Below are positions 1,100-12,433 of a stretch of DNA of 64,000 nucleotides, piece by piece. Position numbers and translations under genes: made by a program. Where the stretch lies: positions 744,001-808,000 of the forward strand of contig NZ_FNKY01000001.1 of the NCBI RefSeq assembly GCF_900103165.1, read 5' to 3'. Origin of the DNA: Nitrosospira multiformis (GTDB lineage Bacteria; Pseudomonadota; Gammaproteobacteria; Burkholderiales; Nitrosomonadaceae). The notes beneath the pieces are model-generated. The model was not told the DNA's origin, did no database searches, and saw only the letters and a list, made by a program, of their open reading frames with translations. The stretch's first letter is position 1, and every line of letters starts with the position of its first letter.

Positions 1100-4000
1100 T
1101 TAATGAAAATCCCGGCTCTCCACCCTGAGATCACCCAGCAAATGACTATGGTCTACCAGCCGCTTGGCAATCAGATGTTTGACTTCACCTTCACATTGCC
1201 ATACGCCATACACCGTCAAAAGCTTTGAGTTCAATAGCTCGCGGCGTTGTTTTAGTACGAGCAGGTTCCAAACCACAACATTTATTATTCCGGTCTCATC
1301 TTCCAGCGTTACGAATACGACGCCGCTGGCAGTTCCGGGGCGTTGCCGGCATGTCACGATGCCGGTCGTCCGCACCAGTCGCCCGGTCGGGTAATTATCC
1401 AGCTCGATTGCCGAGCGCAAGTTCATTCTGGCCAGTTTCGGCCGCAGCAAGGCGAGTGGATGCCTGCGCAGGGTGAGTTCCATGCTGGCGTAATCAGAAA
1501 CAATTTCTTCTCCTTCAGGCGCAGCAGCAATGGCGTGCAATGTCTCTTTTACCGGAGCATCTCGCATCAGATCCGATTGCTTGATATGTGAGGCGGCCCC
1601 CCATAGGGCTTCGCGCCGGTGGCCTGCCAAAGTTCGTAAGGCATCTGCGCTGGCGAGGGCGCGTATTTCAATAGCATTCAGAGAGGCGCGGTTCGCCAGA
1701 TCGATCGTGCTTTCAAAAGAAGCGGTTTTTCTTGCCTCAACGATGCGCATGGCGGCTTTCAAGCCGATTCCTTTCACCCTGCTCAAGCCCAGTCGCACAT
1801 TGGGTGGGGCGGGTCGAGAAGCCTTGGTCATTTGCTCTTCAAGTGTGCAATCCCACCCGCTGATTGTTACGTCCACCGGCTTGATTTGAACGCCATGCCG
1901 TTGCGCATCCTGGATCAGTTGCGAGGCGCCATAAAACCCCATCGGCAAGCTGTTGAGCATCGCGCACAGGAATGCGGCGGGCTCGTGACATTTAAGCCAG
2001 GACGATACATACACCAGCAGTGCAAAGCTGGCGGCGTGAGATTCCGGAAATCCGTATTCGCCGAACCCCTCGATCTGCCGGAAGATCCGCTCGGCAAATT
2101 CCCGGTCATAACCCCGGTCGACCATGCCGTTGATCAAGCGCGCATGAAAAGAGCCGAGCCCCCCTTTTCTTTTCCAGGCGGCCATGGAACGCCGTAGCTG
2201 GTCCGCCTCGCCTGGACTGAAGCCAGCGGCCAGGATTGCTATTTGCATGACTTGTTCCTGGAAGATGGGGATACCGAGTGTGCGCTCCAAGGCGGTTTCG
2301 ATTTCATCGCTTGGATAACTCACGGGTTCCAGCTTTTGGCGGCGGCGCAGATAAGGATGCACCATGCCGCCTTGAATCGGCCCGGGTCGGACGATGGCAA
2401 CTTCTACTACCAAGTCATAGAAAGTTCGTGGCCTCAAGCGCGGCAACATTGACATCTGTGCACGGGATTCGATCTGGAAGACGCCAATGGTGTCGGCTTT
2501 GCAGATCATGTCGTAGGTTTTTTCATCTTCCGCCGGAATATCCTGCATCTGGAATGGGAGGCCGCGCCGGGCGGAAACCAGATCGAGTGTGCGGCGGATC
2601 GCCGATAGCATGCCCAGCGCGAGCACATCAATTTTCATCAGCCCCACCGCTGCAAGGTCGTCCTTGTCCCACTGGATGATGCGTCGATCCGGCATGGCGG
2701 CGTTTTCGATGGGCACGATGCGGCACAATTTGTCGCGCGAGATGACGAAGCCGCCTACATGTTGGGACAAATGACGCGGAAACCCGTATAGGACCGGAAT
2801 CAATTGCATCAGCTTCCGGATAACCGGGCTGTCGGGATCGAAGCCATTCTCGGCCAGTCGATTACGAATGTCCGAGGTTTTATCCCACCAGGCCAAAGAA
2901 GCGGATAGCCGCTTGATGCGCTCAATATCAAGCCCCAGCGCCTTGCCGATATCCTGAATCGCCGAACGGGTGCGGTAGGTGATGACCGTGGCGGCGATGG
3001 CGGCACGATCGTGGCCGTATTTCCGGTAGATATACTGGATCACTTCTTCCCGGCGCTGGTGCTCGAAATCGACATCGATATCGGGCGGCTCATTGCGTTC
3101 CCTGGAAATAAACCGCTCGAACAGCAAATTGCTGCGTTCCGGGTCGATCTCGGTAATACCCAGGCAATAGCAGACCGCGGAATTGGCTGCCGAGCCGCGC
3201 CCCTGGCAAAGAATGCCCTCCGACCGGGCGAACCTTACGATATCGTACACCGTTAAAAAGTAGGGTTCATACTCAAGCTCGGCGATCAATTGCAACTCCT
3301 GCTCGATCTGCTTTTCGACCTTGATCGAAGTGCCGTTGGGAAAACGTCTTGCCATGCCCTCCTCGACCATTCGCCGCAGATAATCCGTATAGGTTTCACC
3401 CGCCCTGGCATCCATACCAGTTAATTCCTCGGGATACTCATAGCGCAGCTCATCCAGCGAAAAAGTGCAGCGTTTTGCCACTGCAATGGTCTCTTGCAGG
3501 AGTTCCGGCGGGTAGAGTTGGCTCAATTGCGAACGGGTGCGCAAGTGCTGCTCCGCATTGGGCTGCAATGCATAACCGCATTCGCACAGCGGCTTGCCGA
3601 GGTGGATGGCGGTCATCGTATCCTGCAGGGGCTTGCGGGAAGGGGCATGCATATGCACATCGCCGGCGGCTACCAGAGGCATTCCCATAGCCTTCGCAGA
3701 CTGCCGGATTTTCTCGAATAGCAGGCTTTCGTCCGCATGTAACAACAACTCGACAGCAGTCCAGCAGCGCCCGGGGAAAAGGCGCAGCACCCAACGCATG
3801 TCATCCATGAGGGAATCGCCTTCCTGGTGCGGGCGGGGGATCAGCAACATCAGGCAATCCGGAAGCAAAGCCAGATGGGGAGCTTCAGCGCAGGTTTCGA
3901 AATCCGAGCGGCCTATGCGATAAGTCCCCTTCTCGGCACGTTGCCTTGCCAATGTTATCAATTCGCACAGATTACCGTAGCCGTTCCGGTTCATCGCGAG

Positions 4001-4294
4001 GCAAACAAGCCGTAATCCATCCTCCAGAATGAACTGGCTGCCTATCAAAAGATGCAGGCCGGTTTTCTTAGCCTCCGCATGCGCTCTTACGACGCCGGCC
4101 ATGGAACATTCGTCCGTAATGGCCAATGCGGTATAGCCTAAAGTCACTGCACGTTTCACCAGTTCTTCCGGAAAGGAAGCGCCCTGCAGGAAGCTGAAGC
4201 TGGAATAGCAATGCAGTTCAGCGTAGGCAGGAATTGAGGAGTCTATGCTAGACAAATACTGGATAGCCTGGCCCCGGGATGTAGGCAAAGTCAT
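1100..4294 (-). CDS. dnaE2: Error-prone DNA polymerase DnaE2 (ImuC)
   Basis: A 1064-residue C-family DNA polymerase alpha subunit of the DnaE2/ImuC type, used for translesion synthesis in the SOS response. The N-terminal PHP domain starts at AELHCYSSFSFLQG (about residue 25). The palm aspartates lie in PDIDVDF (404-410). HVGGFVIS marks the finger region, and an OB-fold sits near the C-terminus (GIVTCRQRPG... DETGIINVVVWN). Length is normal for DnaE2 and shorter than replicative DnaE. It is the last gene of lexA-imuA-imuB-dnaE2 and starts 3 bp after imuB, so translation is likely coupled. Family knowledge: ImuB bridges ImuC to the beta clamp with help from ImuA. No frameshift or missing active-site residue is seen. 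Confidence 0.95.
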   Translation of the reverse strand: MTLPTSRGQAIQYLSSIDSSIPAYAELHCYSSFSFLQGASFPEELVKRAVTLGYTALAITDECSMAGVVRAHAEAKKTGLHLLIGSQFILEDGLRLVCLAMNRNGYGNLCELITLARQRAEKGTYRIGRSDFETCAEAPHLALLPDCLMLLIPRPHQEGDSLMDDMRWVLRLFPGRCWTAVELLLHADESLLFEKIRQSAKAMGMPLVAAGDVHMHAPSRKPLQDTMTAIHLGKPLCECGYALQPNAEQHLRTRSQLSQLYPPELLQETIAVAKRCTFSLDELRYEYPEELTGMDARAGETYTDYLRRMVEEGMARRFPNGTSIKVEKQIEQELQLIAELEYEPYFLTVYDIVRFARSEGILCQGRGSAANSAVCYCLGITEIDPERSNLLFERFISRERNEPPDIDVDFEHQRREEVIQYIYRKYGHDRAAIAATVITYRTRSAIQDIGKALGLDIERIKRLSASLAWWDKTSDIRNRLAENGFDPDSPVIRKLMQLIPVLYGFPRHLSQHVGGFVISRDKLCRIVPIENAAMPDRRIIQWDKDDLAAVGLMKIDVLALGMLSAIRRTLDLVSARRGLPFQMQDIPAEDEKTYDMICKADTIGVFQIESRAQMSMLPRLRPRTFYDLVVEVAIVRPGPIQGGMVHPYLRRRQKLEPVSYPSDEIETALERTLGIPIFQEQVMQIAILAAGFSPGEADQLRRSMAAWKRKGGLGSFHARLINGMVDRGYDREFAERIFRQIEGFGEYGFPESHAASFALLVYVSSWLKCHEPAAFLCAMLNSLPMGFYGASQLIQDAQRHGVQIKPVDVTISGWDCTLEEQMTKASRPAPPNVRLGLSRVKGIGLKAAMRIVEARKTASFESTIDLANRASLNAIEIRALASADALRTLAGHRREALWGAASHIKQSDLMRDAPVKETLHAIAAAPEGEEIVSDYASMELTLRRHPLALLRPKLARMNLRSAIELDNYPTGRLVRTTGIVTCRQRPGTASGVVFVTLEDETGIINVVVWNLLVLKQRRELLNSKLLTVYGVWQCEGEVKHLIAKRLVDHSHLLGDLRVESRDFH

Positions 4295-4297
4295 GAT

Positions 4298-5818
4298 TTA
4301 TCCAAAAAGCCCCTGCAAATACCAGCCATTGCCATTGTTTCCTGTTGCCGGGTTATGTTCGCAGTAGATCCATAACAATTGGCCGAGCGCATTTTCCGCA
4401 ATAAAATAATCGCGGGCGATCGGCGCATCATCCCACCAGCCTGCTTCGATTCGCTCCGGTCCCGCAATCAATTTCAATGGCGAACCATAAACCGGTTGGT
4501 AACGTTGCAACTTCAATTGCAGTGGCGCTGCCATTAACCATGCCGGACGGACCAAGGGACAAGCGGATGCCGATGGAGTTGCTTTTCGGCATGAAGCATG
4601 ACTTTCCTTGCTCATTTCCAAAGGCCGAGACCTTTGGCTGTATTCCGGCCGATGGTCGGAGATAGGATTCAAACCGGTGATGGCTTGCGGCCCGAGGCGG
4701 GAAGAAACTTTTTCGATAAACCGGTTCAGTGAAGTTGCCTCCGATTGCGAGGTGGGAAACAGCTCCAGATGAGGACTTGTCCCAGCCGTTATCTGATCCG
4801 CTATCAGCCCCAGTCCGCAAACCGGGGCCACTATTTCTATGCGTTCCAGCCGTTCACGCAACAAGAGCATCAGGTGCTCCGCGTCGTCGCTTTGTTCGGA
4901 AAGTTTTATGTGGAGTGGCGTGGATTTATGCGGCTGCCGCAGCGAATATTCGTGATGAAAAATGAATGAGAATTCCAGGACTGCGGCATGACGCAAAGAC
5001 AGCCAGCCGCACATTTGCCCGATCATTCTCTGCACGGGAACCCATATCAACTCGACACTTTCAACCTGTGCCATTAATTCCATTCTTTGTTGAAAATATT
5101 CCGGTACCTCAAGCCACTGTTGCGGATCTGGCGAGTCGCCGCAGGCACGATCCAGTTCTGTCAGCAAATCCGGACCAAACCGGCGTGCCAGGCCGCCGCG
5201 AGGCAGTTGCCGTAAATCAGCCAATGTCTTGCAGCCTATGCCGCGAATGACTTCAAGATAAGGCTGGACCGATTCCAGTAAATAAATGGGCAGGGAATCC
5301 AGCAACGATCGGAACCTGGAGCCCGCGCCATTGATGACGGTTTTCAGCGGGGCGGATTGCGCAAGCAGCCATGCCCCCTTGGCGGTGGGGGCAATCCCCA
5401 CGCAGAGCTGCAAGCCTTGCGCGGCCACTGCCTGGTTGAGTAGCCGGCATAATTTTTTCAAGCCACCAAACAACTTCAGGCTCTTGGAAACTTCAGCGAT
5501 CAGGCCGCTGCCTTGCATGACAATATGGGGCGTGAAACGAAACGCGGCATACGCAGCTTCCCGCAATGCTTGCATTTCTTCATGCGGATCATGTTCCACC
5601 ACTACCAGACCGGGAAAAAGAGACAACGCAGTGGCCAGAGGCTGGTGCGCCGCAACTCCCCACTGTTGTGCCGGCTTATTGGCTTGCCGGATGTAAACCT
5701 GATTTCCCTTGTGAATCGTTGCCGCCATTGCGGGAATCAATGCCGCAGGAAATCGGCGCTCGATCCAGTCAAGCGATAGTGTCGGGCAATGGAGGGCGAT
5801 CCACAACATTGCATTCAC
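4298..5818 (-). CDS. imuB: Y-family polymerase-like protein ImuB
   Basis: A 506-residue inactive Y-family polymerase homologue. Opening residues LWIALHCPTLSLDWIERR and the segment VEHDPHEEMQALREAAYAAFRFTPHI match ImuB. The acidic residues that Y-family enzymes use for catalysis are not evident, as expected for ImuB, which acts as an adaptor to the beta clamp and DnaE2. The frame opens with GTG at 5818, giving a GTGA overlap with the imuA stop. An ATG three codons on, at 5809, is the alternative start. It is the third gene of the SOS mutagenesis cassette and would be co-transcribed from the lexA promoter. Confidence 0.92.
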   Translation of the reverse strand: MNAMLWIALHCPTLSLDWIERRFPAALIPAMAATIHKGNQVYIRQANKPAQQWGVAAHQPLATALSLFPGLVVVEHDPHEEMQALREAAYAAFRFTPHIVMQGSGLIAEVSKSLKLFGGLKKLCRLLNQAVAAQGLQLCVGIAPTAKGAWLLAQSAPLKTVINGAGSRFRSLLDSLPIYLLESVQPYLEVIRGIGCKTLADLRQLPRGGLARRFGPDLLTELDRACGDSPDPQQWLEVPEYFQQRMELMAQVESVELIWVPVQRMIGQMCGWLSLRHAAVLEFSFIFHHEYSLRQPHKSTPLHIKLSEQSDDAEHLMLLLRERLERIEIVAPVCGLGLIADQITAGTSPHLELFPTSQSEATSLNRFIEKVSSRLGPQAITGLNPISDHRPEYSQRSRPLEMSKESHASCRKATPSASACPLVRPAWLMAAPLQLKLQRYQPVYGSPLKLIAGPERIEAGWWDDAPIARDYFIAENALGQLLWIYCEHNPATGNNGNGWYLQGLFG

Positions 5819-6525
5819 GCATGAGCTAAGGTGGCTGAAGAAGTCATGAAGCGGGGGAAAGGTCTGGCGGGCAGGGTGATGTAAATGGGCAAGTCAGTCG
5901 GGTTGCCCCTGCGCTTCAGCAAGCGCACGGAAAGCATATGCTGTCGTACTGAACCGAGCAATATTCTTAGCGAGGCTGCGGAGGGTTCGAATTGTGCGCC
6001 CGCCGGCCTGAATAAAAAAATCAGGCTGGCGGCAGTCCGCGCAATAATTTGAAGCCTGCGCGTCATTGGCTGGTTTATGCCGGGCAGCCAGCCGATGACA
6101 GCCCCAAAGGCGGCACTTTTGATGCCTTGCTCGAGCACCCATAACCGCTCGGCCGGTCTGTCAACGCTGACCATCACAATGCGCCGGCTATCGATATTCA
6201 GATTTTCCCACGCATGCATATAGGGAATATGAGGCGGCCCCACCAATAGAATATGCCTGCCATTCCGGGTGACTTGCTCAAGCGAGGGACTCAATAATGT
6301 TATTTCTCCCAGCCCTTCCGCCGGCAACAACAATTCCGTCAGACTGTGAAGCGACCATCCTTTTCCCGGCAACGCTTTATCCAGTTCATTGAAGCCACTG
6401 GAAATGACCTGATCAGGTGCAAACCCTGATGGGTCGCCCCGCCATATCCGGTCCCGGAATCGGGTTTCGATTTGTAAAAGCGATAGCGGTGCCAAGGGTA
6501 AGGATGGAGAAGCAAGCGTTGGCAT
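5815..6525 (-). CDS. imuA: Translesion synthesis-associated protein ImuA
   Basis: A 236-residue RecA/SulA-like protein. The segment FNELDKALPGKGWSLHSLTELL matches the start of the ImuA fold, followed by a degenerate Walker-like region (ILLVGPPHIPYMHAW) and QIIARTAASLIFLFRP. ImuA works with ImuB and DnaE2 in damage-induced mutagenesis. It starts at an ATG 19 bp after the lexA stop, and its stop overlaps the imuB start by 4 bp, so the four genes form a tight operon. ImuA sequences vary between species, so the name rests partly on gene order. Confidence 0.9.
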   Translation of the reverse strand: MPTLASPSLPLAPLSLLQIETRFRDRIWRGDPSGFAPDQVISSGFNELDKALPGKGWSLHSLTELLLPAEGLGEITLLSPSLEQVTRNGRHILLVGPPHIPYMHAWENLNIDSRRIVMVSVDRPAERLWVLEQGIKSAAFGAVIGWLPGINQPMTRRLQIIARTAASLIFLFRPAGAQFEPSAASLRILLGSVRQHMLSVRLLKRRGNPTDLPIYITLPARPFPRFMTSSATLAHA

Positions 6526-6544
6526 GGCTAAGGGTGTTCATCTA

Positions 6545-7168
6545 TCAACGATTGGAACCAAGGGGATATCCGGAAGTACGGGCTTTTCGAATGAGGCCCA
6601 CATACAACCCATAGATTTCCAGTCCCTGCTCAGGCCGGATGGGCGGATAGTCCCGGGCTCGGCTATGGTTGCGCGCTTCGAGGTAATAACCTCTTGTATC
6701 CTTGGCCAGGACTTTGAGCGTGAATTCGTTATCCACGATTGCCAATACTACTTGACCGGATGAAGGGGAATTGCCGCGTTCGATAATCACCATATCGCCC
6801 TCGAATATTCCCAGATCAATCATCGAATCGCCTTTCACGGGAAACAGGATGGTTTGGGAAGGTTTCTCGATAAGATAATCATCAATGCGCAGCAATTCAG
6901 GCTGGACGTCGGCGGCCTGTTGAGGCATTCCTGCCCGTACCGCATGTCCGACTGTTCGCTCGAAAAAGCGGGGTCCGGGACGTGACCGGCCACCTGGCGC
7001 ATTTTCGAGAAAGCCTTCTTCCTTCAAACGCTGAACGATCTGATGTGTCCAGGAACGCGCCTTTCCGTTCCAAAGCGCAGACAATTCGGTTATTGAAGGG
7101 ATAACGCTTTCCCTGGCATAGTAATCCTGCAGTTTGCCAAGATAAGAGGAAATATCGAGCTGTTGCAT
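6545..7168 (-). CDS. lexA: LexA-type SOS repressor heading the imu cassette
   Basis: A 207-residue self-cleaving repressor. The N-terminal winged-helix part includes SVIPSITELSALWNGKARSWTHQIVQRLKEEGFL. The cleavage site is Ala79-Gly80 (VRAGMP), the catalytic serine is Ser115 in KGDSMIDLG, and the general-base lysine is Lys152 in EFTLKVL. The ATG at 7168 is preferred; an in-frame TTG at 7177 would add three residues. The recognition-helix region (ALWNGKARSW) differs from the enteric LexA pattern, so it may read a different SOS box. The palindrome AGAACA-NN-TGTTCT at 7206-7219 lies about 40 bp upstream and is the likely autoregulatory operator for the whole cassette. Many proteobacteria carry such a cassette-linked LexA; whether a second LexA exists cannot be seen here. 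Confidence 0.93.
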   Translation of the reverse strand: MQQLDISSYLGKLQDYYARESVIPSITELSALWNGKARSWTHQIVQRLKEEGFLENAPGGRSRPGPRFFERTVGHAVRAGMPQQAADVQPELLRIDDYLIEKPSQTILFPVKGDSMIDLGIFEGDMVIIERGNSPSSGQVVLAIVDNEFTLKVLAKDTRGYYLEARNHSRARDYPPIRPEQGLEIYGLYVGLIRKARTSGYPLGSNR

Positions 7169-7205
7169 AATAATCAAGTATGAAGAACGATCGCTTTTAT
7201 TATAG

Positions 7206-7461: not shown

Positions 7462-10251
7462 TTATTGACCAGGGTTTTGTTGTGCGGGTGTCAACTGTCC
7501 CTTCCATTCTTCAGGCAGGTTCTTGACCCAGGTATTGTATACATTGGGGATAGCAAGAACCCCTTGACCACCGTAACCCGGCAGGCTGCTGATGCGATCA
7601 TCAGTGGGGGTGCTACTATCGCCTACCAGGGAAACCCTGCCCGCTATTTTGGCGTCGGACGGATTGCCGTCATTGTTGGGGTCGGCGTCAACCACGATAA
7701 GTTCATTGGAGAACTTGCTCGTAACATAGGCATAGTATCCCCCGCCTTTTTTGGCCCCAAAATTCGCCCCATGGCAACCTGGATCGCAGGGCAACATCTT
7801 AACCACCTTATCGGTTTTCGTATCAATGACAATTATCGACGGAGTGCCCATATTCGCGACCACTACGGCGCTGCCATCGGGGGAAACGGGTAACTGGACG
7901 GGAAGTACGCCAACGGTGGCCTGTCCGTCTCCATCGCGGTCCACTATAGTGCCGTCAATGGGATCGTAATCCGCGATCAGGTTGATGGTTTTTTCCAGAG
8001 TTCCATCCTTGTTGATGACACTCACGCTATGATGCAGCAGATTGGCCGCATAGAATTTGCTGGAGTCCGGCATCATGCCGATAGCGATGGGGTGAGCCCC
8101 TGGGGCAGAGTTTCCTGTGGGCGTTCTTTCCAGGACGGTTCCGCTGTCGGTGCTGTAGAATCCTACATCACCGGTAAAGATGTTGGGGGTAATGATCTTA
8201 CTCCCATCTCCGCTGATCCAATGCCCATGGGGATTGGTAGCAAGCTGACCGGATTTTTGCGTGGGAATCATCTTGCTGACTTCAGTTGTTCCCGCCAGGA
8301 TGATGGACATGCCATCTTCGCCGTTATTGCTGACCGTGATATCTTCGTTATCAGGGCGAGTCATGACATGAGCGGGCGCCTCGCCCACCTGGATGTTCTT
8401 GATCAAAGCTCCCGTCTTTTTATTGATCATCGTAAGTTTATTGTCGAACCATTGGGTCTGGTAAACAATCGATTGATCTTTGTTGGTCCACATATTGTGG
8501 GGGTTGTTCATATTGATCTGTGGCAGCGAGATCTTGCGAACAATCTTCCAGGTGGTTGTGTCGATGGCGGTAATGGTTCCGGGCTTGGTCTTGCCAGCGG
8601 TTTTTTCAAATTGAGTATCAACCCACACTTCACCCACGCCGGGGATTGACGGAGGCACAGGTGCCGATAAGACCGTATTATTGCCATATCTGGCGATTAA
8701 AACCTCCGATAGATTGGCGACCGCTCCGCCAGTGATGCGGACGGGAACACTGGGGTAGGTCAATTTCCAGGGCGTGGGAGGCGTATAATTTTGCCAGTTG
8801 TTAGGGGCGGTGGCGATAAAGAAGATCCTCAACAGCCGGGTGGCAAGATCGCTGCTGGTAGGTAGATTTTTCACGCCAGTCGCCAGGTCGATAGTTTCTC
8901 CGAGGTCAAGTCCTTCAGTTTCCGGATCATCCACTATTACCGCAGCAAACATGTAAGGATGCACCTTGCAGGTGAATACGTACAAACCCGGTGTTGTCAG
9001 CTTGACGAGGCCACCGCCTTTGTAGGCCCTGCTCTGGTCAAAGGGCATGGAGGCATGTTTTGTATGGTCGGTTCCGCGTCCTCTGCTTTTACCTTTACCG
9101 TGATGGGGGTGATTCCCATCGCCTGCCTCGCTTGGCCATAACAGGCTGGTCATGGTGTGGACCGTGTTGGTTTCCGCCATGATGAAATTAACGCTGCTGC
9201 CAGGGGGAATCACTTCCAGGGACCGGGTGCTGCCGGTAATGCCGAAAATGGTTTCGCTCCGGGCGCTCCGGTACCAGCTTCCCGGCTCATCCGAGATCAC
9301 GAAAGTGACGAGGCCGGGGTCAGTGCTTGTGCTTCCGTAAATGGCACCATAGGGGGAGGCGCCAGCGATGCTGTGACCCATTCCCTTATTATGACCTTTA
9401 GTGGCGTCGACTCTAAAAGTGCTGTGCATGCCCGCTTCCATGTGGGAAAACAGATGGCAGTGGTACTGCCAGTTACCGGCACCGACGCCAGTGCCGGCTT
9501 TAACGGTGAAAGTATGGCTGTCGGAAACGTCGTCCATTAACTTGGTATCGATTACGCTTGTGGTTCCGGGTTCCAGCCAGCGATGCGCATGCAGGTGAAA
9601 GGTGTGTCCGGGCCCAACTGACAGGATATGAAATCTGACGATGTCATCCTCGACAGCCCCGAGAATCGGGTTGGTCCACAGGGGTGTTTGTGTTCCGGCT
9701 TTGGATATTTCTGTTGCCCAGAAGGTCGAGCCGACCATAAACAGCACATACTGCTTGTCCAGTTGTCCCGCTTTGACCGATTTGAGGGCGCCATTGTCGT
9801 CGACATACCGTTCTACATTCCCATCCGTTCTATCGACCACAATAGCGCCAAACAAGCCAAGTAATTCCTGTCCATCGCCGTAGTAGGGATAGGCGCCGGT
9901 TTTGGTGGCGGTGAAGGTATAGCTCAGTGTTCCTCCATTCGGGGCCGCCTTCGCGGCGCTGCCGGTTGAGAGACCGGGCACCTTGAAACCTGCCGGTTTA
10001 TCCGTATTGTTGGTGACCGTGACACTGACGGTATCGCCCTGTTTTACGAAAAGGGTGGGTCCCGGGATAACCGCCTGACCATCCCCTCTTTTATAGCCAT
10101 ACTGGCCGTTGGGTAACACCTCCGCCGACAGCGCGAGGTCATGATTTGCCGCCTGGGCCATGGGTGGAGCCAGTAGCAGCATGGCCGCGAGCAGCGCGCA
10201 TGCTGTCCCTATCGCCGCGGGTATTTTCAGTCCAAAGATATTTTTGCTCAT
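7462..10251 (-). CDS. Multicopper oxidase-like protein with cupredoxin domain and beta-propeller
   Basis: A 929-residue exported protein with a signal peptide (about 1-34, cut after AQA). Domain 1 (about 45-140) has the cupredoxin outline but no copper histidines: where HxHG and HxH belong it reads AGFKVPGLSTG and AYPYYGDGQELLGLFG. Domain 2 (about 160-282) is intact, with His216/219/221 (HTFHLHAH) and His264-Cys265-His266...His270...Met275 (YHCHLFSHMEAGM). A third cupredoxin domain has His365 and a Cys428-x2-His431-x2-Met434 motif. From about 500 to the end the sequence looks like a YVTN-type beta-propeller (ISLPQINMNNPHNMW, GHWISGDGSKIITPN, VSPDGSAVVVANMG). It is the second gene of a pair, 34 bp after the smaller oxidase, and has its own terminator. 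Alone it lacks half the trinuclear-site ligands; the neighbour supplies the matching half. The substrate is unknown. Confidence 0.85.
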   Translation of the reverse strand: MSKNIFGLKIPAAIGTACALLAAMLLLAPPMAQAANHDLALSAEVLPNGQYGYKRGDGQAVIPGPTLFVKQGDTVSVTVTNNTDKPAGFKVPGLSTGSAAKAAPNGGTLSYTFTATKTGAYPYYGDGQELLGLFGAIVVDRTDGNVERYVDDNGALKSVKAGQLDKQYVLFMVGSTFWATEISKAGTQTPLWTNPILGAVEDDIVRFHILSVGPGHTFHLHAHRWLEPGTTSVIDTKLMDDVSDSHTFTVKAGTGVGAGNWQYHCHLFSHMEAGMHSTFRVDATKGHNKGMGHSIAGASPYGAIYGSTSTDPGLVTFVISDEPGSWYRSARSETIFGITGSTRSLEVIPPGSSVNFIMAETNTVHTMTSLLWPSEAGDGNHPHHGKGKSRGRGTDHTKHASMPFDQSRAYKGGGLVKLTTPGLYVFTCKVHPYMFAAVIVDDPETEGLDLGETIDLATGVKNLPTSSDLATRLLRIFFIATAPNNWQNYTPPTPWKLTYPSVPVRITGGAVANLSEVLIARYGNNTVLSAPVPPSIPGVGEVWVDTQFEKTAGKTKPGTITAIDTTTWKIVRKISLPQINMNNPHNMWTNKDQSIVYQTQWFDNKLTMINKKTGALIKNIQVGEAPAHVMTRPDNEDITVSNNGEDGMSIILAGTTEVSKMIPTQKSGQLATNPHGHWISGDGSKIITPNIFTGDVGFYSTDSGTVLERTPTGNSAPGAHPIAIGMMPDSSKFYAANLLHHSVSVINKDGTLEKTINLIADYDPIDGTIVDRDGDGQATVGVLPVQLPVSPDGSAVVVANMGTPSIIVIDTKTDKVVKMLPCDPGCHGANFGAKKGGGYYAYVTSKFSNELIVVDADPNNDGNPSDAKIAGRVSLVGDSSTPTDDRISSLPGYGGQGVLAIPNVYNTWVKNLPEEWKGQLTPAQQNPGQ

Positions 10252-10285
10252 TTAGTTTTATCCTCTTGATCTATCTGCCTGTTCA

Positions 10286-11338
10286 TTAAGGAGCGCCGCT
10301 CGTGACATTGAAGCTGCCCCTCATGCCCATTAATTTGCGCGAAAAATTCGCGTTCATATAGTTCGCGCTGCCTAAGGCCTTGATGGTAAAAGCGTGATTC
10401 TCAAGAGGGCCGATATCTTTCGCGACAATCAATTTTGTCGTTCCGGGATCGACCCACTGATAGCCTTCGAGCTGAAATCGATTCAGATAGGTGCCCATGG
10501 CGATAAGATGGAACCTCACATTGTCACCCCCTTTCGCGGTCAGAATAGGGTTGACCCCAAGCGGGATTTGTTGCTTGCTGGCGCCGTCTATTTCCATTCC
10601 CCAGAAAGCATCGTCAGCCAGGTAAAGCACATAGTCTTTTTTAATACTACTAACGGGTAAGCTTGAGATGCTGCTGCCATTGCTTGCGGTCACTGAGCCC
10701 GATGCCGGATTAACTATGACGGTACCAAAAAGCCCCCTGTCTTCGGAGCCGTTGTGGGTTTCAAAATTGTGATCGTGGTACGGCCAGGTGCCGGCGGTGC
10801 CCGGCGCCACGTCCCAGAGATAGGTATAGAAGCGTCCGCCGTGATCAGGATAGGCGCCCTCATCTTCAACCTTGTTGATAATCTTGAGGGTGCCATCGCT
10901 CAAGATGGTGTAATGCACACCGTGCACATGGACGCTGATTTGCTGATCAGGGCTGACGGTAACGCCGTTGCGGATGGTAAGTCTGACCTTGTCGCCTTCC
11001 GTGAGAACTATCGTCGGTCCGGGAATGGTGGCCTGCGTACTGTATCGGGAAGTAATGTTAACGCCATCAACCTGATGCTCGACCATGCGGTAGGCAAGCA
11101 AACCGTCTTCTGTTTCTTCCGCGATCATTTCAATGTGGTGCTTAGCACCATTCTTTTTATCGGAATCGCGTTCGGCCCCGATGCTTTCCGCGGAAGATAG
11201 AAAAAACATCCCAAGAGACAGGATAAGCGCAATCCCTGGCTTGATGAACAAGCACCCAAATCGCCGTACGATTGGAGAGTATTGAGTTTGATCAGAAGCT
11301 GTAAAACCCCCCACAGCATAGCTATGTTGATACTTCAT
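10286..11338 (-). CDS. Two-domain multicopper oxidase-like protein, domain 2 degenerate
   Basis: A 350-residue protein with a long N-terminal region and a hydrophobic export signal (about 31-54). Domain 1 keeps both copper motifs: His137/139/142 (VHVHGVHY) and His188/190/195 (WPYHDHNFETH), followed by RGLFGTVIV. Domain 2 keeps the fold markers (VRFHLIAMG, GYQWVDPGTT, LMGMRGSF) but not the ligands. NRFQLEGYQW replaces HTFHLHAHRW, and YMNANFSRKLMGM replaces YHCHLFSHMEAGM. Thus His, Cys, His and His become Met, Asn, Ala and Arg. An SD-like AGAGGAG precedes the ATG at 11338. It is the first gene of the pair with the 929-residue protein, which has the opposite pattern of loss. It would be inactive alone by family rules. 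A joint enzyme is an inference. Confidence 0.85.
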   Translation of the reverse strand: MKYQHSYAVGGFTASDQTQYSPIVRRFGCLFIKPGIALILSLGMFFLSSAESIGAERDSDKKNGAKHHIEMIAEETEDGLLAYRMVEHQVDGVNITSRYSTQATIPGPTIVLTEGDKVRLTIRNGVTVSPDQQISVHVHGVHYTILSDGTLKIINKVEDEGAYPDHGGRFYTYLWDVAPGTAGTWPYHDHNFETHNGSEDRGLFGTVIVNPASGSVTASNGSSISSLPVSSIKKDYVLYLADDAFWGMEIDGASKQQIPLGVNPILTAKGGDNVRFHLIAMGTYLNRFQLEGYQWVDPGTTKLIVAKDIGPLENHAFTIKALGSANYMNANFSRKLMGMRGSFNVTSGAP

Positions 11339-11710: not shown

Positions 11711-12433
11711 TTATAAACGGCTTGCGGGAGACTCAGATCGAGCGCATGTCACACTGAACTGATGATGGTGGAGTTTGGCAAACATGAAAAGATCAAAGCG
11801 GTTCGTGATCTCCAATTTGCTGAAAATAGACGTCAGATGGTTCCGCAGGGTCTGTTCGCTAATATCCAGCGTGCGCGCGATTTTCTTGTTTGAAGCGCCT
11901 GCCTCATTCGCGAAAGCATTGACGATCATGCGTTCTTTGCGCGTAAGCGCAATGATTTTCCCCGTGACGGGGTCGACAGGTGTTTTTTGACCCGCACGTA
12001 AAAAGTTGATAAAGACACGTCCGGTAGTCCGCCGGTCAAGCCACAGCTCGCCATCGTGAACCTTCTGGATGGCCTTGAGGATGGTTTGCGTAGGCTCCTT
12101 TTTGTACACGACGCCCCGTGCGCCATTGAACAAAGCCACGTCGATAGCGGTCTGGTCGTGAATCTCGGTAAAGATGATGATGTGAAAATGTCTTTCCCGC
12201 AACAAATCGGGGATAAGGTCCACGCCCTTTTCTCCGCCAAGGTCAAGGTCGAGTAAAACTATATCGGGTCGACTCTCTCTGGCCAGCCGCCTGGCGTCCG
12301 CGCCATTGGTCGCCTTGCCGGCGATTTCCATGCGCGGAGACTCGCTGTTTATGAGTTTTTCCAGTCCCCATAGAACAATCTGATGACTGTCGATCAGCAG
12401 GACGCGGATGGGTATGTGAGAGGAGGGGTACAT
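11711..12433 (-). CDS. NarL/FixJ-type response regulator
   Basis: A 240-residue regulator. The receiver domain (about 8-125) has the acidic pocket at LLIDSHQ, the likely phosphoacceptor Asp62 in IVLLDLDLGG, and the conserved lysine in VVYKKEP. The LuxR-type helix-turn-helix (about 160-225) reads LTRKERMIVNAFANEAGASNKKIA and then ISEQTLRNHLTSIFSKLEI. No sensor kinase is adjacent. It lies upstream of the two oxidase genes on the same strand with a 372-bp gap, so control of those genes is possible but not shown. It is divergent from the secretion operon that starts at 12846 and could act there instead. Confidence 0.9.
   Translation of the reverse strand: MYPSSHIPIRVLLIDSHQIVLWGLEKLINSESPRMEIAGKATNGADARRLARESRPDIVLLDLDLGGEKGVDLIPDLLRERHFHIIIFTEIHDQTAIDVALFNGARGVVYKKEPTQTILKAIQKVHDGELWLDRRTTGRVFINFLRAGQKTPVDPVTGKIIALTRKERMIVNAFANEAGASNKKIARTLDISEQTLRNHLTSIFSKLEITNRFDLFMFAKLHHHQFSVTCARSESPASRL

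Follow-up and report, generated by a model that had tools for sequence, protein, structure and literature searches.

Two adjacent genes of Nitrosospira multiformis as candidate obligate subunits of a single multicopper oxidase

Described systems and the locus

Multicopper oxidases (MCOs) of the two-domain type B are homotrimers in which a trinuclear copper site lies between domain 1 of one chain and domain 2 of its neighbor, the type-1 copper being located in domain 2 (PMC13151041), and in ceruloplasmin a ring of related domains has retained one of three ancestral trinuclear sites (PMC3600357). Here we analyze a window of 64,000 nucleotides (nt) from Nitrosospira multiformis (assembly GCF_900103165.1, contig NZ_FNKY01000001.1, positions 744,001 to 808,000), in which two adjacent genes, A and B, encode MCO-like proteins with complementary sets of copper ligands. 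Comparison with their relatives suggests, with a rough probability of 0.83, that A and B are obligate subunits of one MCO having its active site at the A-B interface.

The closest solved structures of both proteins by sequence are type-B two-domain laccases (E 2.6e-19 for A, 9e-25 for B). Both have two cupredoxin domains related to those of small laccases, with ligand columns in register with those of SLAC and Ssl1 (PDB 9ix9, 8aip, 4w1t, 6yo5), and the oxidase part of a structure model of B matches these enzymes in fold. As described, type-B laccases are homotrimers carrying both trinuclear half-sites in each chain, whereas here there are two proteins, one of which (B) bears an additional cupredoxin and a propeller; A is without the domain 2 half-site, B is without the domain 1 half-site, and only jointly do they hold both. 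Since the half-sites are split, neither protein alone is classed here as a type-B two-domain oxidase. Ceruloplasmin and other six-domain rings are single six-domain chains, whereas A and B are two separate genes with two and three cupredoxin domains, and the pair was not placed in that class either.

Adjacent genes of one MCO type, as in A-B, occur also in archaea, where NFRAN_2029/2030 of a Nitrosocosmicus species, strongly upregulated in biofilm, have ferredoxin and antibiotic-biosynthesis-monooxygenase (ABM) neighbors; the cited passages call them two copies of MCO3 and are silent on ligand loss (PMC12448741). A ferredoxin and an ABM gene also stand beside the pair at a split archaeal locus of our set (L243), and by this likeness in gene neighbors only, NFRAN_2029/2030 may correspond to A and B. 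Another nitrifier oxidase, the Nitrosopumilus maritimus MCO of PDB 9cck, combines MCO domains with a C-terminal cupredoxin, as B does; it is a distant match to A (E 3e-5) and, judged from its length of 409, has no propeller. We take this structure to be that of MCO4a (Nmar_1354). MCO4a of N. maritimus is cited as making HNO from hydroxylamine (PMC12448741).

The propeller of B resembles those of lactonase-type nitrous-oxide reductase (NF052460, 2.9e-08) and of hydrazine synthase beta (NF052340, 4.5e-10), as does that of a methanotroph partner protein; these matches score between 18 and 60 bits, where the cut-offs are 700 and 560, respectively. Assignment to the lactonase-type nitrous-oxide reductases was rejected, NF052460 scoring 32.7 bits with B and 59.6 with a methanotroph partner protein against the curated 700. 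Nitrous-oxide reductases at large feature a CuA cupredoxin with two Cys; the third cupredoxin of B has one, in CxxHxxM. The methanotroph partner propeller (L260:7176-9023) gives E values of 1.9e-16 with NF052460 and 4e-15 with NF052340, far under the cut-offs in score. No heteromeric or split two-domain oxidase appeared in titles or abstract openings among the matches listed from the open-licence literature, which leaves novelty in print unproven.

Complementary ligand patterns

Relatives of A were found in 79 of 125 genomes of the Nitrosomonadaceae at E<=1e-5. Seven genomes with weak matches only (E 7e-13 to 3e-6) were dropped; the remaining set comprises 72 genomes and 80 A frames, that of the window included, plus three further pieces, and 80 A and 83 B frames were aligned. 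The genes and their ligand motifs are as follows, with row counts from this alignment; domains keeping their trinuclear half-site are called live, the others dead.

11338-10286, minus strand: gene A, ORF of 350 aa, a putative exported two-domain MCO with live domain 1 and dead domain 2 (Pfam Cu-oxidase_3)
10913..10930, minus: A domain 1 HVHGVH, predicted trinuclear His 1 and 2 (H137, H139), His in 80/80 A frames
10754..10780, minus: A domain 1 YHDHNFETH, predicted trinuclear His 3 and 4 (H188, H190), His in 80/80 A frames
10454..10483, minus: A domain 2 NRFQLEGYQW in place of HTFHxHxHRW, ligands lost, His in 0/79 and 0/78 covering rows at the HxH columns
10322..10360, minus: A domain 2 YMNANFSRKLMGM in place of YHCHxxxHxxxGM, ligands lost, type-1 Cys in 0/80 and second type-1 His in 0/80
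10251-7462, minus strand: gene B, ORF of 929 aa, with dead domain 1, live domain 2, third cupredoxin and propeller (Pfam and NCBIfam)
9967..9993, minus: B domain 1 AGFKVPGLS in place of the HxHG motif, ligands lost, His in 0 rows at both columns
9871..9891, minus: B domain 1 YPYYGDG in place of YHDH, ligands lost, His in 47/78 rows at the Tyr124 column and in 0 at its partner column
9577..9606, minus: B domain 2 HTFHLHAHRW, predicted type-1 His 216 and trinuclear His 219 and 221, His in 78/79 covering rows per position
9427..9465, minus: B domain 2 YHCHLFSHMEAGM, predicted trinuclear His 264 and 266 and type-1 Cys 265, His 270 and Met 275, His in 79/80, Cys in 80/80 and Met in 79/79 covering rows
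8926..9363, minus: B third cupredoxin, amicyanin-like type-1 site (H365; C428, H431 and M434 in GLYVFTCKVHPYMF), each ligand in 80/80 covering rows
7465..8649, minus: B propeller, about residues 535-929, Pfam Lactonase and YNCE above cut-off

A is located upstream of B on the same strand, with a gap of 34 nt, and both N-termini are hydrophobic and, judged by eye, export-signal-like. In B, two A-like oxidase domains are followed by the third cupredoxin and the C-terminal propeller (Pfam, NCBIfam).

A sequence-only reading of this DNA had quoted motifs from both proteins and described two oxidases with complementary loss of copper ligands. The motifs are present and fall on the ligand columns of genuine type-B two-domain oxidases, where B mirrors A, and the pattern goes beyond chance or decay in a single genome. 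Domain 1 of A reads HHHH in all 80 aligned A frames, and the type-1 Cys column of A holds no Cys (Asp 68, Asn 8, Thr 2, His 1, Glu 1). No His occurs at the HxH columns of domain 1 of B (at most 78 covering rows), and its domain 2 carries the type-1 ligand set (His, Cys, His, Met) of type-B two-domain oxidases, a set absent from domain 2 of A. All eight domain 2, four third-cupredoxin and seven propeller ligands are present in 74 of the 83 B frames, fragments included. Seven of the nine incomplete frames are broken or contig-end pieces (two in L042, L083, two in L103, L107 and L112); of the other two, L098 is without H741 only and L099 has a gap at 585. The lone row lacking His in HTFHLHAHRW is likewise a frame-broken piece (L042).

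The third cupredoxin was identified by its ligand motif together with sub-cut-off matches (Pfam Copper-bind; NCBIfam amicyanin, E 0.013). Its type-1 site is complete in 47 of 48 rows of a wider propeller set, and propeller His 585, 628, 675, 677 and 827 are all present in 45 of them; His 720 and 741 occur mostly in bacterial B.

Conservation and adjacency in the Nitrosomonadaceae

The expectation that other Nitrosomonadaceae would show the same ligand pattern and that the two genes would co-occur was borne out, the pair being present, by strong A match, in 72 of the 125 genomes and in 10 of the 23 from the genus of the window. For 77 of the 80 A frames a same-strand B frame or piece follows downstream, at most 187 nt away or with an overlap, and orthologues are rarely found alone. 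The B frame is broken in three of these cases (L042, L083, L107). The three A frames outside the 77 are one at a contig end, whose genome has B on another contig (L108 and L109, respectively), one among broken frames with a B frame overlapping A (L103), and a fragment in a genome that has another copy (L104). The live domains have lower mean column entropy (0.97 bits for domain 1 of A, 0.88 for domain 2 of B) than the dead ones (1.23 for domain 2 of A, 1.29 for domain 1 of B).

Matches to B at E<=1e-30 occur in 87 of the 125 genomes, 15 of which have no strong A. In 14 of the 15 the listed matches are to the cupredoxin-propeller part (from about residue 300 on) or are pieces; for the fifteenth (G059) the match position was not listed.

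Two loci (L070 and L072, the same records as L147 and L152) carry two pairs in an A-B-A-B tandem. Solo proteins of about 600-650 aa, consisting of the third cupredoxin and propeller with no oxidase domains, were observed in L264-L273 (e.g. L266:6542-8392 and L268:4394-6247); they are found in many ammonia-oxidizing bacteria, including some without the A-B pair.

Complete relatives, archaeal pairs and taxonomic range

A scan of named genomes, in which the best 80 of 99 relatives were kept, gave 79 loci: 13 encode a complete oxidase and 66 a split A. At 60 of the 66 split-A loci there is a B frame that includes both an oxidase part and a propeller; the other six comprise broken B frames (L121, L153, L179), contig ends (L134, L160) and the fragment already mentioned (L174). 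Among the 13 complete oxidases, 11 are from methanotrophs or metagenome-assembled genomes (MAGs) of Gammaproteobacteria and two from Nitrosopumilaceae MAGs, and 10 are followed by a separate cupredoxin-propeller gene. The Methylocystis complete oxidase of L185 belongs to an organism with a second, propeller-linked copy (L258). At L263, on the Methylocystis rosea plasmid NZ_CP044330.1 (typed mobilizable), a complete oxidase has a sigma factor gene upstream and is directly followed by a 613-aa hypothetical protein, which resembles the propeller partner by size alone.

In the family of M. buryatense, 11 of 151 sampled genomes likewise have complete forms. Of 151 genomes sampled from the order of Nitrosopumilus, 13 gave matches. 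The split pair or part of it is found in six archaeal genomes (G680, G705, G722, G736, G792, G813), and six others (G697, G781, G793, G796, G808, G823) have single frames of 880-1125 aa with a complete oxidase, cupredoxin and propeller; genome G523 has a complete oxidase without a propeller. No strong match was recovered outside the family Nitrosomonadaceae in 399 sampled genomes of its order, where two weak ones occurred (E 3.4e-11 and 1.6e-11), or in 398 of its phylum, a sample overlapping that of the order; nor, apart from the MAG itself, was one recovered in 147 genomes of the order to which one gammaproteobacterial MAG belongs.

A 70-row alignment spanning bacteria and archaea comprised 23 A rows, 24 B rows and 23 rows of the complete type, two of the last being Streptomyces laccases. 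Every complete-type row has a ligand at each of the 12 columns. Each A row has the four domain 1 His and none has the type-1 Cys; at the position of the second type-1 His, three of the six archaeal A rows have His. The domain 1 HxH is lost in all 24 B rows, six of which keep the first His of HDH, and the domain 2 ligands are complete in 23, the last row ending before the final two columns.

Carriers mostly encode a copper monooxygenase: PF02461 was detected in the genome of the window and in nine of the 11 bacterial genomes that have a complete form, and archaeal AmoA in 13 of the 14 archaeal carrier genomes. Ammonia oxidizers without the pair are common, and genomes bearing ammonia monooxygenase (AMO) without it include G094, G096, G005, G007 and G008. 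Split A was also seen in MAGs named Nitrospirae, Chromatiales and Pseudomonadales (L160, L164, L172), which match neither AMO family. In the tree the genes of these three MAGs nest within marine Nitrosomonas, so that misbinned contigs or recent transfer are likely.

Phylogeny of A and B

Rooting the tree of the 70 rows on the two Streptomyces laccases gives one clade for the 23 A rows and one for the 24 B rows, each spanning bacteria and archaea and each supported at 100/99 when all columns are used. The two clades roughly mirror one another, with archaeal A in one group (99/90) and archaeal B in two. After masking of 49 motif columns A is still one clade (100/98), and a single origin of A is well supported by these comparisons. 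Independent loss of the A ligands in several lineages is not favored, A being one clade with all and with masked columns. That bacteria and archaea share the pair implies that it was transferred. A propeller tree built by a quick method with no bootstraps separates the methanotroph and fused archaeal rows from a side (96) that unites the solo paralogues with bacterial and archaeal B.

A shared active site and its alternatives

By homology, domain 1 of A against domain 2 of B would be the only interface able to hold a trinuclear site. In the assembly that we propose, A and B would be two obligate subunits of one exported MCO, with the O2-reducing trinuclear site built at the subunit interface from four His of domain 1 of A and four His of domain 2 of B and fed by the type-1 copper in domain 2 of B. 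Electrons would enter through B, probably via the third cupredoxin, from a substrate or partner near the propeller, and would pass from cupredoxin 3 to the domain 2 type-1 copper, the trinuclear site and finally O2. The dead domains (domain 2 of A and domain 1 of B) would have been retained as structural parts of the ring. A type-B ring of three subunits containing both A and B would hold exactly one trinuclear site in either mixture, as in ceruloplasmin, and a 2:1 or 1:2 stoichiometry would therefore be at least as likely as the 3+3 ring suggested at first.

As to origin, the ancestors may have been complete two-domain oxidases working with, or fused to, a cupredoxin-propeller protein; one copy would have remained fused (B) and one free (A), each then losing the opposite half-site. 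The single clade of A, the complementary loss, the adjacency, the complete relatives and the lower entropy of the live domains together favor such a split oxidase. The original proposal of a split, obligate hetero-oligomer with one half-site per partner is thereby supported, through the pairing, the non-random loss and the complete single-chain relatives, and to it are added the third cupredoxin and propeller of B, the complete relatives, the archaeal pairs and the single A clade.

Structure was modeled for B alone and for A joined to B. The AlphaFold2 model of B, built from 33 aligned sequences, has a pLDDT of 86.0 and a pTM of 0.85, and Foldseek matches it to the archaeal YVTN propeller 1l0q and to Streptomyces small laccases. 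A tethered A+B model (locus L122, with one stop read as Gly, 736 aa, 40 rows) has a pTM of 0.82, which suggests that A is placed confidently against B, whichever interface forms; the alignment behind it wrongly set the final dozen residues of unpaired A rows against B.

Several observations weigh against a split oxidase or the origin given for it. Foldseek aligns the tethered model to six-domain rings over about 1000 columns with a TMq of about 0.28 and an rmsd of about 21 A, giving no match in chain order; a chain-order alignment is unable to reveal a contact between domain 1 of A and domain 2 of B, and the low TMq is compatible with that contact or with no ring. The dead domains keep some ligands, domain 2 of A having the first type-1 His in 70 of 79 covering rows and the Met in 76 of 80, and domain 1 of B a His at the column of the window's Tyr124 in 47 of 78. 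In the archaeal genome G705 a third B (L246) has no A alongside, besides two pairs. Masking of the motif columns reduces the bootstrap support for a single B clade to 54%, and a single origin of B, which rests partly on those columns, is less sure than that of A. In the masked tree A groups with the complete forms (96/96), leaving B outside, on weak nodes near the root (37/47, 40/74) and next to the very long outgroup branch. With B so placed, a simple tandem duplication giving A and B is not established; they may be sisters by tandem duplication or may derive from a free and a fused complete oxidase.

It is unlikely that the two proteins share no site at all, B being an electron-transfer or substrate-binding protein and A a copper-binding or delivery protein, neither of which reduces O2. 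Such a division of labor agrees with the completeness of both type-1 sites of B and with the oxidase-free cupredoxin-propeller proteins of the same genomes, from which it follows that no trinuclear site is required for the module to work. It would leave the four trinuclear His in A and in B unneeded, yet these are near-invariant and exactly complementary, and relatives of A and B have both His sets in one chain.

A split oxidase with a further, non-trinuclear metal site in domain 2 of A, made of His, Asp and Met, seems similarly improbable. The Asp that replaces the type-1 Cys in 68 of 80 A frames, with the first His and the Met, would provide the ligands; the A of the window, however, has Asn, Asn and Met at these positions, and the remaining ligand positions vary freely.

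Decay of a duplicated oxidase into paralogous relics, kept by chance or for another role, can be dismissed as very improbable: the leftover ligands of the dead domains and the broken frames at L042, L103 and L107 are what it would predict, while the half-sites stay invariant through 72 genomes and in bacteria and archaea alike, A adjoins B in 77 of 80 cases, and the live domains are the more conserved. Random ligand decay across homologues and pseudogene status were rejected on the same pattern of nearly invariant half-sites and complementary losses.

Possible function and implications

Late in phage infection, two MCO genes of N. europaea Nm50 increase in expression in parallel, by log2 values of 6.16 and 6.14 (PMC13356812). 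Their near-equal rise would fit one operon, and they are possibly the A-B pair. A role as a core step of ammonia oxidation is weakened by the presence of the pair in only 72 of 125 family genomes and by the AMO-bearing genomes without it, and the patchy range argues rather for an accessory oxidase, related to stress, copper or reactive nitrogen.

To our knowledge, the owner of the step between hydroxylamine oxidation and nitrite is unsettled. There is a slim chance that A-B is an oxidase tied to ammonia and methane oxidation, in which the propeller, with its five near-invariant His, would hold a metal or else a small nitrogen compound, while a reactive intermediate (NO, HNO or hydroxylamine) would give up electrons that flow through the third cupredoxin and the domain 2 type-1 copper to O2 at the split trinuclear site; the absence of the pair from many ammonia oxidizers counts against it. 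Should it hold, the pair would supply an enzyme for the step from hydroxylamine oxidation to nitrite, common to bacterial and archaeal ammonia oxidizers. Carriers are mostly ammonia and methane oxidizers, bacterial as well as archaeal, a range suggestive of a common, uncharacterized copper chemistry.

The pair looks like a natural example of how the complementary loss of half-sites can convert a symmetric homotrimer into an obligate heteromer. Complete relatives are extant for comparison, which allows a direct test of the route proposed to lead from two-domain oxidases to asymmetric rings of the ceruloplasmin kind. If A and B do form one enzyme, many "multicopper oxidase" annotations in nitrifiers would each describe half an enzyme, and expression studies counting two adjacent oxidases would concern a single one.

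Genes neighboring the pair

A regulatory gene is encoded upstream of the pair:

11711..12433, minus strand: LuxR-type response regulator (Response_reg and GerE)

Related response-regulator genes occur near 44 of 75 loci, nearly all upstream and on the same strand, and the LuxR-type protein is a probable regulator of the A-B pair. The region directly downstream of the pair (window 1100-7177) contains a peptidase S24 (LexA-like) gene, together with frames that resemble ImuA, ImuB and DnaE2 and presumably make up an SOS mutagenesis cassette.

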